The position numbers and the translations under genes are program-made. A model generated the notes under the pieces. That model was given only the letters and a program-made list of their open reading frames with translations, had not been told where the DNA came from and made no database searches. From a virus, in IMG/VR virus record IMGVR_UViG_3300030012_000916, positions 1 through 22,634 of that record: a stretch of DNA of 22,634 bases. One strand, 5' to 3'. How positions within the stretch are numbered: the first letter of the stretch is position 1; each line of letters begins with the position of its first letter. Shown here one piece after another: positions 3,825 to 7,139 of the stretch.

Positions 3825-4961
3825 TCAGAATGCGGCAGGCTTGGTAGCGGTGCCAGCAAACAGTTCCACTGCACAAGCAGGGTTCAGGTAGTCTGCGCCC
3901 ATGGCGAGACGACCCAGGATCACGTCACCTTGGTAGACCACGGAGACGTCACCGCTGGTGACCTGGACCTGAGGGCCAATAGCTTCAACGCAGCCAGCGG
4001 CTTCGCGTTGGAAGATAAGACCACAGGAGTTTGCGAATTCGGTTTCTTCACCGTACTCGTTGTTGATGCCAGAGACATCGTTAGCAGCATCTTCCAGAGC
4101 TTCGCTGACAAAGGAGCCAGTGTTACCGGGGGAAGTGGTGCCAGGGTTGGTAGCAGAACCAGTACCGTACTTAGTGCCATACTGGCTGAAGAACGGAATG
4201 TTCATGGACTTGAAGATCTTGATACCAGCAATCTCCACAATGCCCTGACCGGACTGCAGGCCATCGCCTTGCTCGTCACGGTTGATCAGTCCGTTGTTGC
4301 CAACTTCCTGAATTAGTGCATAGTATTGACGGGGGTTCAAGATTCCCACACGTCCCTCTTGAGACACACCCTTTTCGTCGAGTGCTGCTGCGGCATCGAA
4401 GAAGGCGGTGGTCAGTTTTTGAGCATCATAAGCGTCAGAAGCGTTGGCAGTAGCGCCAACACGGATTTGGGTGCCACCCGGCTCAACGAAGTTAGACTTG
4501 GTGATAGGGGAAGCAGCACGTGCCCCGCGAGTGATAGCGCGGAAGATCAGACGATCATACTTTTGTGCAAGTGCATAACCGATCTTGCGTGAGATTTCAG
4601 AACGCAGATCGTAGTGGGCAAGAGTTTCATCCAGGTCATACAGGAATGCACTGGAGATGAGCAGATCATCAACGGTGATAGTCTTCTCAGCCACCGGAGG
4701 TGCACCGTCGGAGTTACCGAGGATTGCGTTTCCGGGGGTGTGGTACTCAGCCGTGGTGCGACCAGTGTAGATGAACTGCATAGATTTGCCGTTCTTCAGC
4801 GTACGCTTCATGACAAGATCACGAGCGATCGCATTATACTGGAAGCCTTTGAACATCTCTCCACTGAACAACTTCAGGTAGAGAGCGCGGGTGTCACCCG
4901 CAGAGTTAGCCTGACCAGGACGAGTCAGACTCGTGGTCAGTGATGAACTTTGATGTGCCAT
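3825..4961 (-). CDS. Major capsid protein (gp10-like, HK97 fold)
   Basis: 378 residues, close to T7 gp10A (345). The N-terminal SLTTSLTRPGQANSAGDTRA, the LYLKLFSGEMFKGFQ stretch and the RLIFRAITRGARAASP region match the T7-like capsid family. The C-terminus, DVILGRLAMGADYLNPACAV, is a conserved closing segment. Around residues 255-290 is a Gly/Thr/Ser-rich loop (GTGSATNPGTTSPGNTGSF) that is probably surface-exposed. The gene is flanked by a terminator downstream and a structured leader of about 150 bases upstream, and is expected to be the most strongly expressed late gene. The start at ATG 4961 fits the family N-terminus although no Shine-Dalgarno sequence lies within 15 bases. No gp10B-type frameshift extension was identified. 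Confidence 0.95.
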   Translation of the reverse strand: MAHQSSSLTTSLTRPGQANSAGDTRALYLKLFSGEMFKGFQYNAIARDLVMKRTLKNGKSMQFIYTGRTTAEYHTPGNAILGNSDGAPPVAEKTITVDDLLISSAFLYDLDETLAHYDLRSEISRKIGYALAQKYDRLIFRAITRGARAASPITKSNFVEPGGTQIRVGATANASDAYDAQKLTTAFFDAAAALDEKGVSQEGRVGILNPRQYYALIQEVGNNGLINRDEQGDGLQSGQGIVEIAGIKIFKSMNIPFFSQYGTKYGTGSATNPGTTSPGNTGSFVSEALEDAANDVSGINNEYGEETEFANSCGLIFQREAAGCVEAIGPQVQVTSGDVSVVYQGDVILGRLAMGADYLNPACAVELFAGTATKPAAF

Positions 4962-5109
4962 TGTAAGGAGTAAATAGTATTAACCAACTCCCAAAGCTTT
5001 GAGAAAAATTTTTGTGGTCTATCCCACCGTCTAGACGGCTAATGGGTATCCGCGTACGGGCCAAAAGCCAATGCAAGGGAGGTCCGACTCTGAGGTGCCT
5101 CCCAAGCTT
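4962..5109 (-). promoter_or_regulatory. Structured 5' leader of the capsid gene
   Basis: 148 bases without a convincing gene. On the minus strand, GGGAGG (5097 region) pairs with CCTCCC (5076 region) around a 15-base loop. A second hairpin has CCCA and TGGG outside a 12-base palindrome, CCGTCTAGACGG (5027-5038). Nearest the gene, GGAGT (4991-4987) can pair with ACTCC (4971-4967), only 5 bases before the capsid ATG. A promoter is expected here, since this gene needs strong late transcription. TAATACTATTTACT at 4982-4969 resembles the left half of a T7 promoter, but I cannot confirm it. Function is inferred from position and base pairing only. Confidence 0.5.
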
Positions 5110-5304
5110 TTACAGAAGACCTTTAAGGCACTTCTTTTGTTTGCGACATTGTGGTTTTTTAGTGCCACAGTAACCACAACGATTGAAAGCAATACCGTTA
5201 TCGACAGTATCAGGTACTATTTTAGTAACAGCAGCTTTGACAACCTTAGATTGATGTGGCATGATCTTTTCAATAATAAATAGGCGTGGACGCTTTCCGA
5301 TCAT
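5110..5304 (-). CDS. Small Cys-rich (zinc-knuckle-like) protein, unknown function
   Basis: 64 residues from ATG 5304, preceded by AAGGAG three bases upstream, a strong if close ribosome binding site. The N-terminal part is basic and hydrophobic (KRPRLFIIEKI). The C-terminal third holds four cysteines in the pattern C-x2-C-x6-C-x5-C (CGYCGTKKPQC and on) within a Lys/Arg-rich stretch. This suggests a small metal-binding fold that contacts nucleic acid or protein. An internal ATG at 5262 (MPHQSK) would give a 50-residue version that keeps all four cysteines. It lies between the riboswitch-controlled peptide and the capsid leader. I do not recognise a named family. Confidence 0.65.
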   Translation of the reverse strand: MIGKRPRLFIIEKIMPHQSKVVKAAVTKIVPDTVDNGIAFNRCGYCGTKKPQCRKQKKCLKGLL

Positions 5305-5359
5305 CCACTCCTTAAACCGTCCCTTCGGGCTTTACAATTTTGGAAAGCTCAGAAGATAT

Positions 5360-5476
5360 TTAGTTGGATGCGATATTACGCTTAACAATGTAAGCGACAC
5401 CACGATACTTCAAGACAATTTCTTTTTGCTTGGCTTGCTGTTCGCGGACACGTTGACGCAATTCAATAAGAGACAT
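5360..5476 (-). CDS. 38-residue DUF4278-like peptide under riboswitch control
   Basis: Starts at ATG 5476 with GGAG six bases upstream (5486-5483) and stops at TAA 5360. The first half is a charged helix (SLIELRQRVREQQAKQKE). The second half, VLKYRGVAYIV, matches the core of DUF4278, the short cyanobacterial family with a K-L-x-Y-R-G-V-x-Y signature. Function is unknown. The ribosome binding site begins four bases after the 3' strand of a pseudoknot in the glutamine-II-like RNA just upstream, so translation is probably reduced when that RNA is folded. Short peptides are the usual genes downstream of this RNA class. The coding call rests on the good binding site, the riboswitch and the family motif; length alone would not support it. 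Confidence 0.7.
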   Translation of the reverse strand: MSLIELRQRVREQQAKQKEIVLKYRGVAYIVKRNIASN

Positions 5477-5490
5477 GATGAACTCCAAAT

Positions 5491-5541
5491 ACCTTACCCC
5501 CCGTTCCATGAGTAAGATGCCTGCGTCCCGAAGGATGAACG
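5491..5541 (-). ncRNA. Glutamine-II (Downstream-peptide) riboswitch-like RNA
   Basis: On the minus strand P1 is CGTTC (5541-5537) paired with GAACG (5506-5502). Inside it, P2 is a TCC/GGA hairpin with a UUCG loop (5535-5526). ATCTTACTC (5518-5510) pairs over nine positions, two of them G-U, with GGGTAAGGT (5499-5491), which lies beyond P1 and so forms an H-type pseudoknot. The strings CGTTCATCC, GGACGCA and ACTCATGGAACGG agree with my memory of the Downstream-peptide motif, later shown to bind glutamine. The pseudoknot ends four bases before the ribosome binding site of the following peptide gene, so ligand binding should lower translation. It occurs in cyanobacteria, cyanophages and marine metagenomes. 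Confidence 0.85.
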
Positions 5542-5553
5542 TACGGCTGAAGT

Positions 5554-5703
5554 CTATTTCTTTTTTGCAGTTTTTGCAGCACGCTTAAAGTTTGCTGCGG
5601 TTGGTGCGCCTTTAGATCCAGGCTTACGCATCTTCTCGCCACTGCCTGCAGCGATCCGCTTACGTTTTGCGTGGATGTTAGCGTAGAGTCCAGGCTTAGC
5701 CAT
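5554..5703 (-). CDS. 49-residue basic phage protein (MAKPGLYANIHAKRKR type)
   Basis: ATG 5703 to TAG 5554, overlapping the preceding gene by 8 bases. The protein is very basic: GLYANIHAKRKRIAAGSGEK, then a Lys/Arg/Gly/Ala section ending in three lysines. I recall near-identical short proteins beside capsid genes of other marine and cyanobacterial phages, always uncharacterised. The charge suggests binding to DNA or RNA, or to the acidic scaffold, during head assembly; that is inference. It is the last of five basic micro-genes between scaffold and the riboswitch, and its stop lies 12 bases before the riboswitch. Confidence 0.85.
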   Translation of the reverse strand: MAKPGLYANIHAKRKRIAAGSGEKMRKPGSKGAPTAANFKRAAKTAKKK

Positions 5704-5911
5704 AGGATTTTTTGGATTTCTTTTTAGCTAGAGGTAGTTGAGGTCCAGTCCGCTTAAGAAATGTTTCTTTTTCGTGCGGATTGTTTGTGCTCTTACCTTT
5801 GTTGTAAATCTTTTGTTTCTTTTGTGCACCTCTGTGGCCTGGGCCAATGTCAAAGGACTGGGAAACAAAGTTACTACCAAAGGCTTTTTGGTCAACTCGT
5901 TTGCTTTTCAT
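5696..5911 (-). CDS. Small basic protein, unknown function
   Basis: 71 residues from ATG 5911, whose A is also the last base of the upstream TAA stop (TAATG). This is better coupled than the in-frame ATG at 5923, which would add four residues. The sequence has GSNFVSQSFDIGPGHRGAQK in the middle and a Lys-rich end (KKKSKKSYG). No catalytic motif or membrane segment is present. It overlaps the next small gene by 8 bases and belongs to the tightly packed basic micro-protein operon between scaffold and capsid. I do not recognise a named family. Confidence 0.75.
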   Translation of the reverse strand: MKSKRVDQKAFGSNFVSQSFDIGPGHRGAQKKQKIYNKGKSTNNPHEKETFLKRTGPQLPLAKKKSKKSYG

Positions 5912-6171
5912 TAGCATTTCCATTTACGTAGTGCAAGAGCCTTCCGTGTAGGACGACCCTTGCTGTCTTTCATTGGTCCTTTGACACCAGACATGCGGGC
6001 ACAAAAAGAACGCTTGCGTGGTCCACCTTCAGGCTGTGGTGCCTTCAGGTTAGACCCTGTAGCTCTGTTATATTTACGCCGACCGGCAGCCGTTAAGCCA
6101 CCGGACCGCGATTTGTGTACACCGATCTTGAGACTTACTGAACGTGTACTACTTTTTGTTGCCTTTGCCAC
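5911..6171 (-). CDS. Small basic protein, DUF6321-like
   Basis: 86 residues with a GTG start at 6171. The central pattern, KIGVHKSRSGGLTAAGRRKY followed by NRATGSNLKAPQPEGG and RKRSFCARMSGVKG, matches a short phage family that I recall as DUF6321, of unknown function. The C-terminus ends with RKALALRKWKC. There is no ATG before the conserved region, so GTG is chosen; it is supported by GGAGG eight bases upstream, inside the preceding 20-residue gene. It overlaps that gene by 23 bases and the next gene by one. Charge and position suggest a minor virion or DNA-binding role, but nothing here proves one. Confidence 0.85.
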   Translation of the reverse strand: MAKATKSSTRSVSLKIGVHKSRSGGLTAAGRRKYNRATGSNLKAPQPEGGPRKRSFCARMSGVKGPMKDSKGRPTRKALALRKWKC

Positions 6172-6211
6172 CTTTCTTGCCTCCGCAAGAGCCTTTACCT
6201 TTGTATGCCAT
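6149..6211 (-). CDS. 20-residue Gly/Lys-rich micro-protein
   Basis: ATG 6211 overlaps the upstream TGA by one base (TGATG) and the frame ends at TAG 6149. The peptide begins MAYKGKGSCGG and is otherwise almost only Lys, Gly and Asn. Its stop lies inside the next gene, so the two frames overlap by 23 bases. The evidence for translation is the coupled start and its place in a run of genes of the same basic type. Such a short frame could also serve only to deliver ribosomes to the GGAGG site it contains. Function unknown. Confidence 0.5.
   Translation of the reverse strand: MAYKGKGSCGGKKGGKGNKK
6180..6184 (-). promoter_or_regulatory. Shine-Dalgarno GGAGG deciding a GTG start
   Basis: GGAGG lies 8 bases upstream of GTG 6171 and inside the 20-residue gene at 6211-6149. 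It selects this start for the DUF6321-like protein, which has no ATG before its conserved region. Confidence 0.75.
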
Positions 6212-6381
6212 CAGCGCATACCTCTCTTACGACGGAGTGCTGCAAAGTCTGCAGACTCAATTTTGAGTTTGTTGCCAGCTTGTCCTGCGATCATACGCTG
6301 ACCACGTGAAAGCTTTTTCATTTTCTTTTTTTTAGGAGGGCGTCCAACTTTGGAGCCGTATGTTCCAGGTCCGTAAGGCAT
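6211..6381 (-). CDS. 56-residue basic protein, unknown function
   Basis: ATG 6381 follows the scaffold stop after two bases, and the frame ends in TGA at 6211, overlapping the next ATG. Residues 1-15 (MPYGPGTYGSKVGRP) are Gly/Pro-rich. Next come a run of lysines, LSRGQRMIAGQAGNKLKIES and DFAALRRKRGMR. It is first in the basic micro-protein operon and is strictly co-oriented and coupled with the scaffold gene. No known fold was recognised; a nucleic-acid or scaffold-binding role is inferred from charge only. Confidence 0.8.
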   Translation of the reverse strand: MPYGPGTYGSKVGRPPKKKKMKKLSRGQRMIAGQAGNKLKIESADFAALRRKRGMR

Positions 6382-6383
6382 AG

Positions 6384-7139
6384 TTAAAAATCAATATCGG
6401 AAAATTCAAGCTTACGCATAACGTCAGTCCTGTATGCAGCGTCACGTTCGTAACGAGGATCGTTCATAGCTTGCACAAGTTCAGCTTGACTGCGAAAACC
6501 TTGAGAAGAATCAGTAGCAGCTTTGCCCTGGATCAACTCACCCTCAGTACCTACCGAATCTTGGTACCGAAGGGCGAGTGCCTGGATAGCAAAAAAGGCA
6601 GCCTCAGCGTTGCCGCTGTCCATAATGTTGTCATACATATTAATCTCTTGCTGAGAAAAGTTATCCTTCGCCCAACCAAGTAGTTCTGTATAACTTTCAT
6701 CACCACCGACAGTACCTTTCAGGTCAGCAACAACCTCTTCAGTCATTTGCATCGGTTGGTTCTCTTGCATTTGACGACGATAGTCAAGGTGCATCTGTGC
6801 TAGATCAGTAGGATCAGCATTAGATAGTTCATCCAACAACTCGTCACTAAATTCATTGTTGAGTTCACCTTCCCACAGCCTGTCGAATAGGTCACTGTCA
6901 ACTTCTTCAGACTCTTCAGTTTGCTCTGCTTCTTCAGCAGGTTCTTCTTCGTCAGAGCCTAGTTTCTTCTGCAGTTCAAGGTATGCAGATTCAAGTTCTT
7001 GTGCGTTCTTGTATTTACCAGCGAGCATTTGCTCCTGGTCTTCCTGCATCTGTTCACCGACTTGCAACGAATCTTGTTCGTCTGCATTCAGTTCACCCGG
7101 AGCGTTTTCGTCCGGGATCATAGACATTACTTCTGCCAT
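6384..7139 (-). CDS. Capsid assembly scaffolding protein (gp9-like)
   Basis: 251 residues, strongly acidic, with Glu/Asp-rich segments at about residues 60-85 (DEEEPAEEAEQTEESEEVDS) and a more basic C-terminus (RTDVMRKLEFSDIDF). That charge layout and a predicted helical, low-complexity body are typical of T7-like scaffolds, which guide the capsid protein into a procapsid and then leave. T7 gp9 is about 307 residues. It begins two bases after the portal stop. In T7 the capsid gene follows directly; here about 1.4 kb of micro-genes and leader lie between. The assignment uses composition, length and position, since scaffold sequences diverge quickly. Confidence 0.85.
   Translation of the reverse strand: MAEVMSMIPDENAPGELNADEQDSLQVGEQMQEDQEQMLAGKYKNAQELESAYLELQKKLGSDEEEPAEEAEQTEESEEVDSDLFDRLWEGELNNEFSDELLDELSNADPTDLAQMHLDYRRQMQENQPMQMTEEVVADLKGTVGGDESYTELLGWAKDNFSQQEINMYDNIMDSGNAEAAFFAIQALALRYQDSVGTEGELIQGKAATDSSQGFRSQAELVQAMNDPRYERDAAYRTDVMRKLEFSDIDF

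Follow-up and report, generated by a model that had tools for sequence, protein, structure and literature searches.

We analyzed a 22.6-kb virus record, the whole of which we refer to as the window. It comes from a marine, T7-like cyanopodovirus whose nearest annotated relative is the uncultured phage MedDCM-OCT-S28-C3 (Autographiviridae, Pedosvirus; 93% identity over half of the query). On the minus strand, the gene order is portal, scaffold, a cassette of five micro-genes, two further small ORFs, capsid, and tail tube A (Table 1). Only p86 and p71 of the five are annotated in the MedDCM-OCT-S28-C3 record, both as hypothetical proteins.

Table 1. Genes and features between scaffold and capsid, in minus-strand order, and one chain protein from another phage (last line). 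Positions are in the window unless a locus is given.
Feature	Position	Strand	Match or remark
Acidic scaffold (T7 gp9-like), directly upstream of the cassette	6384..7139	-	PF05396 and phrog_1052
p56	6211..6381	-	N-terminal MPxGxGTYGSxxGRPxK family and C-terminal 'LSxxQ+xIA..KI.A.D...LR' part; basic micro-protein
p20	6149..6211	-	MAYKGKGSCGGKKGGKGNKK micro-protein; recurring peptide, nucleotide-level constraint
p86	5911..6171	-	DUF6321 protein (PF19846), GTG start
p71	5696..5911	-	Basic micro-protein; a homologous module occurs in chain proteins of T4-like cyanophages
p49	5554..5703	-	GLYANIHAKRKR micro-protein; phrog_16028
Glutamine-II riboswitch, between p49 and ORF 5360-5509	5492-5544	-	RF01704, 47 bits (gathering 33)
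Small ORF in the scaffold-capsid interval	5360-5509	-	Weak DUF4278-like match
ORF of 64 aa preceding the capsid gene, rich in Cys and Lys (CGYCGTKKPQCRKQKKC)	5110-5304	-	Homologues in several relatives
Major capsid protein, bounding the interval downstream	3825..4961	-	PF21703, E = 1.3e-75
S-SZBM1 gp082, 707-aa multi-module protein beside the small terminase gene	L405:11253-13376	-	SAM-lyase-like module

The five micro-genes are real genes. The preliminary description of this locus had proposed overlapping genes of 20, 49, 56, 71, and 86 residues, coupled by TGATG, TAATG, and overlaps of 8 to 23 bases, and both the coordinates and the couplings hold: p56 and p20 meet at TGATG, p20 and p86 overlap by 23 bases, p86 and p71 meet at TAATG, and p71 and p49 overlap by 8 bases. 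p56 starts 2 bases past the stop of the scaffold gene. The micro-proteins were rightly said to be rich in lysine and arginine and to sit beside an acidic scaffold (K+R of 25-35%, pI of 10.2-11.9, and net charge of +7 to +22, as compared to a net charge of -45 and a pI of 4.1 for the scaffold). Just 6 of the 182 ATG ORFs of at least 20 aa in the window reach 25% K+R, and all five micro-proteins have homologues in other phages, with relatives occupying the same site, so the cassette is not a chance occurrence.

Two of the micro-proteins belong to known families. p86 matches the DUF6321 profile at 92 bits (the cut-off is 28.5), and DUF6321 is present in 528 phage records, or about 530 of the 50,697 that were searched. 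The predicted model of p86 is a small three-helix fold (pLDDT of 80); with Foldseek, it had no match in PDB and its top matches in the viral library were DUF6321 proteins. Residues 1-49 of p49 align to positions 1-49 of the 50 in phrog_16028 (E = 1.9e-31), which is a full-length match to the profile, and p49 is found in 125 phage records, from phages of SAR11, Roseobacter, and cyanobacteria. Searches of the profile libraries gave no family match for p71, p56, or p20 (sub-cut-off Pfam matches of p49, p56, and p71 were disregarded). There were also no matches between the profiles of p86 or p49 and PDB sequences, and none from NCBIfam or PADLOC. The N-terminal part of p56 recurs in over 30 short ORFs, and its C-terminal part is also free-standing elsewhere.

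Comparisons to relatives show purifying selection on p86, p71, p49, and p56. dN/dS was 0.00-0.13 for p86, 0.07-0.10 for p71, and 0.08-0.11 for p49, so these three are as strictly constrained as the capsid protein (0.06-0.20); p56 was looser (0.00-0.44). (Saturated pairs yield no value.)

The p49 family extends to bacteria, so it is not exclusively a head protein. Proteins of 50-60 aa that are similar to p49 are present in five bacterial assemblies (L390, L397, L400, L383, and L380; Variovorax, Xenophilus, and others), some of them on long chromosomal contigs. Some of the bacterial proteins have Lys/Ala-rich tails, which would fit nucleic-acid binding. As judged by eye, the ORFs around the p49-like gene in L390 appear to be chromosomal and not from a phage.

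To avoid circularity, we gathered related loci with portal or capsid queries, that is, without using the micro-genes. The counted set is 53 loci with scaffold followed by capsid; some of these overlap or derive from related phages, so the counts are descriptive and do not measure natural frequency. Between scaffold and capsid, p49 is present in 41 loci, the N-terminal family of p56 in 30, p86 in 21, p71 in 16, p20 in 11, and hli and psbA in 33 each. The exact order p56-p20-p86-p71-p49 occurs in 7 of the 53, and many relatives combine hli or psbA with micro-genes. The micro-genes thus form a mixable, variable cassette, in a slot also used by hli and psbA. The grouping of the five as a fixed set, as the preliminary description had it, is not borne out. 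Its statement that at least two of them resemble short proteins beside head genes turns out to be true of all five, and we looked for conservation of order and of sequence in relatives and found both.

This synteny spans cyanopodoviruses and pelagiphages. At the same site, Pelagibacter phage Bylgja has p49 alone, and Pelagibacter phages HTVC168P and Eistla have a 35-aa basic peptide, p49, and p86. In P-SCSP1u, p86 and p49 lie immediately past the capsid gene. In Roseobacter phage CRP-5, p49 is distant from recognized head genes. Cyanopodoviruses such as P-SSP7 use the same insertion interval, with hli and psbA, whereas the window's interval has neither. No p86 or p49 is annotated in this interval of P-SSP7 or Syn5.

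Matches to PHROGs first placed p49 and p86 within longer proteins. In T4-like cyanophages, p86, p49, and p71 all recur as modules of such proteins. In the Kyanoviridae, DUF6321 is usually the last module in proteins of about 100 to 1000 aa, which are mostly encoded between gp16 and gp17 (near gp17 in S-SCSM1 and elsewhere in S-SSM7). p49 is found in such chain proteins either alone or joined to DUF6321 (ACG-2014i gp093). p71 has a tblastn match to DSL-LC02 (E = 3e-4), and a p71 profile matched S-SSM7_236, L336, and L342 (E = 4e-17 to 6e-17). Because DSL-LC02 was among the seeds of this profile, independent support comes from these three profile matches and from the tblastn match, which used no profile. 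The proteins of the T4-like cyanophage cluster T4-GC119 (S-SM1_115, S-P4 gp060, and S-SSM7_236) have the DUF6321 module in common, and S-SSM7_236 has the p71-like module as well. Unlike the window's single micro-genes, these are long multi-module proteins, located between gp16 and gp17 or elsewhere. Proteins of the chain class also carry DUF192, DUF5661, or a SAM-lyase-like module. The latter is in S-SZBM1 gp082, a chain without DUF6321, and follows an FIAE/G site (E = 6.8e-8). An enzyme within a chain protein suggests cargo for delivery, and it is possible that this module is packaged anti-restriction cargo.

Protease-type sites often precede these modules. [LIVM]-x-E occurs at most 8 residues before the module in 107 of 148 contexts, as compared to about 15.6 expected from random positions within the same proteins. 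The six kinds of module are unrelated to each other, and the site precedes 9/12, 16/24, 18/30, 21/25, 4/5, and 39/52 of them. (The contexts were made non-redundant for these counts; single-linkage clustering of the carriers was dropped, as it merged nearly everything.) The stricter form [LI]-x-E is in 56 of the 148 contexts, which is a raw count with no null. T4's gp21 cuts after L/I-x-E (PMC9026906). In S-CREM2, the capsid protein contains GLLTE/APTQ at about residue 56, which is consistent with a site of this type. None of 32 free p49 proteins has [LIVM]-x-E, versus 7 of 10 fused ones (p = 4e-6, Fisher's exact test). For DUF6321 with the AW leader, free and fused forms differ weakly (p = 0.095), since the "free" group includes several T4-like proteins with a targeting-like leader.

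Eighteen distinct proteins that bear p49 or DUF6321 share a leader pattern at their start, M[KR]x[YFL]xE[FL]...LxE. In most of them, the module follows the leader directly or within a few residues (MKSYSELKNLTE/AAWTKK... or MRDFREFKELCE/AKRGLYANIH...), and several contain little beyond the leader and DUF6321. Among 20,632 Met positions of other ORFs, none fits the pattern; it was devised after seeing examples, so this figure describes the leaders rather than testing them independently. The leaders resemble the start of the T4 internal head protein, MKTYQEFIAEA, and the first 50 residues of that protein are a 100% match to T4 records (annotated internal head protein/ipII). The cyanophage leaders are like T4's at residues 4 (Y/F) and 7 (F/L). 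In T4, targeting is mainly by residues 4 and 7 and processing by residues 8 and 10 (PMC9026906). The window's proteins start with MAKPGLY..., MAKATKSS..., or MKSKRVDQ... and show no capsid-targeting leader, so they would need a different route into the head.

Evidence from virions is positive but mixed for DUF6321, and all of it is from T4-like phages. S-CREM2 gp137, which has a C-terminal DUF6321, was detected in CsCl-purified virions (4 unique peptides, 4.1% coverage; PMC10665884, Table 3). S-SCSM1_29, another DUF6321 protein, is labeled "virion protein" in its record, as are other S-SCSM1 proteins (the mass spectrometry study of this phage is PMC9602691). The DUF6321 protein of S-SZBM1 is absent from that phage's mass spectrometry table, and S-SM1_115 is annotated as hypothetical. 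We considered whether S-SZBM1_195, an abundant 87-aa virion protein, might be a DUF6321 protein and rejected this: the 87-aa gene that fits, beside the small terminase gene, is not one. The cryo-EM paper on P-SCSP1u has no mention of mass spectrometry, scaffold, or hypothetical.

We propose that the products of the cassette are small, basic proteins of the head interior, either cargo or lining, that are released into the cell with the DNA (probability about 0.58). The evidence for a role in the head is the purifying selection, the recurrence by head genes in separate phage groups, the shared modules, the sites (with their absence from free p49), the leaders, the two DUF6321 proteins reported from virions, and the SAM-lyase-like module in one chain. 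The shared head-associated role that the preliminary description suggested gains indirect support for p86, p49, and p71, from the T4-like leaders, the protease-type sites, and the two DUF6321 proteins reported in virions. These three micro-genes may be unfused versions of packaged internal head peptides. In T4-like cyanophages, the same modules would be made as chains, with the leader first and [LIVM]-x-E sites between the modules, and the prohead protease would cut the chains apart; the T7-like phage would encode the mature pieces as separate micro-genes. T7 has no prohead protease, and this phage may likewise lack one. The micro-genes are coupled to the scaffold gene, and their products would probably be made alongside the scaffold. 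They would then gather in the procapsid, perhaps by charge attraction to the acidic scaffold, stay with the DNA once the head is mature, and accompany it into the cell. The steps that we infer are cleavage itself, uptake into the heads of the T7-like phage, attraction to the scaffold by charge, binding to DNA, and ejection.

The natural comparison is to T4's IPI, IPII, IPIII, and Alt, which have a capsid-targeting sequence and are processed by gp21. Like these, the window's proteins are small, mostly basic, and made with head genes, and the relatives of p49 and p86 in T4-like phages begin with a comparable leader and contain sites of the L-x-E type. However, the window's forms lack both leader and site and are encoded one by one in a T7-like phage, where they are putative virion components; no sequence similarity to the T4 proteins is reported. 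As they have no leader ending in a protease site, we do not class them as T4-type internal head proteins. More tentatively, and with the odds somewhat against it, marine T4-like and T7-like phages might share a pool of interchangeable basic head peptides, encoded in the former as leader-tagged polyproteins that the prohead protease cuts within the procapsid, and in the latter as a cassette of micro-genes beside a scaffold whose acidity gathers the products, with both delivered along with the genome.

The micro-proteins could instead act inside the cell as late accessory proteins, for nucleic-acid binding or host takeover, that are encoded in a hotspot of gain and loss and are not packaged in T7-like phages. 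The use of this interval as the insertion site for hli and psbA in most relatives, the podovirus forms' lack of a targeting leader, the chromosomal relatives of p49 (in L390, none of the neighboring genes is evidently from a phage), and the fact that P-SSP7 and Syn5 manage without p86 and p49 all fit this explanation. The facts that count against head cargo are P-SSP7 and Syn5, the bacterial p49 proteins, the location of p49 in CRP-5, the missing S-SZBM1 protein, the hypothetical annotation of S-SM1_115, the leader pattern's origin in known examples, and the lack of a leader in the window's proteins. Against accessory proteins are the T4-like homologues with targeting-like leaders and protease-type sites, two of them reported in virions, and the location by head genes in separate phage groups. 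We consider this explanation unlikely, but it is the strongest competitor to internal head proteins.

DUF6321 might also be a C-terminal sorting tag. It would draw carriers of various kinds into the prohead, or hold them on DNA, before being removed, and the free p86 would be either a remnant or a competitor. In favor of a tag, 18 of the 19 DUF6321-bearing proteins that we scanned end with this module, and the carriers differ. Nevertheless, the chains of S-SSM7_236 and L322 continue beyond it, several proteins are nearly just leader and DUF6321, and the free p86 is under strong selection, so we find a tag improbable. For p20, there is the narrower idea that it is a translated leader that holds the ribosome-binding site of p86 and makes no functional protein. 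The sequence GGAGG lies within p20 at Shine-Dalgarno distance from the GTG of p86, and is likely its ribosome-binding site, and synonymous sites in p20 scarcely vary (pS of 0.07, versus 0.38 in p86). The nucleotides of p20 are themselves constrained, so its dN/dS ratio is uninformative. However, the peptide is maintained in about ten loci, ahead of p86 or of p49, and in L029, L041, and L043 it precedes p49 rather than p86 and is kept with different codons. This makes a mere leader very improbable, and it would have no bearing on the other four micro-proteins.

Internal head proteins were already known, and the relation between polyproteins and micro-genes is the new part. In the open-licence literature, we found no paper that names DUF6321 and none that combines cyanophage, polyprotein, and prohead protease. 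DUF6321 and p49 had no function assigned, and the link to leaders and protease sites gives these hypothetical genes a testable role. Our proposal predicts virion proteins that standard tryptic proteomics might miss, because they are short and rich in lysine and arginine. It also marks where cyanophages may keep proteins that are delivered at the moment of infection.

Other elements lie between the cassette and the capsid gene. The first listed ATG of ORF 5360-5509 is inside the aptamer of the riboswitch, so the true start may be further in. ORF 5110-5304 had no family match. At 5282-5330 on the plus strand, opposite to the genes, there is a weak match to the PhotoRC-I RNA (26 bits, below the gathering threshold of 45). 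Upstream of the capsid gene, at 5000-5070 on the minus strand, is an element that is strongly conserved in eight cyanopodoviruses (GGATACC...CCGTCNNGACGGTGGG-A(T/A)AGACCACA). It is not in Rfam and its fold is unexceptional (z = -1.2); it is possibly a promoter or an RNA signal.

A similar pair of micro-genes is found in another phage group. In Vibrio phage 5P1a (L102:3917-4270, plus strand), a short C-terminal part that resembles DUF6321 is followed by a Lys/Met-rich peptide, and the pair sits a few genes from the terminase.
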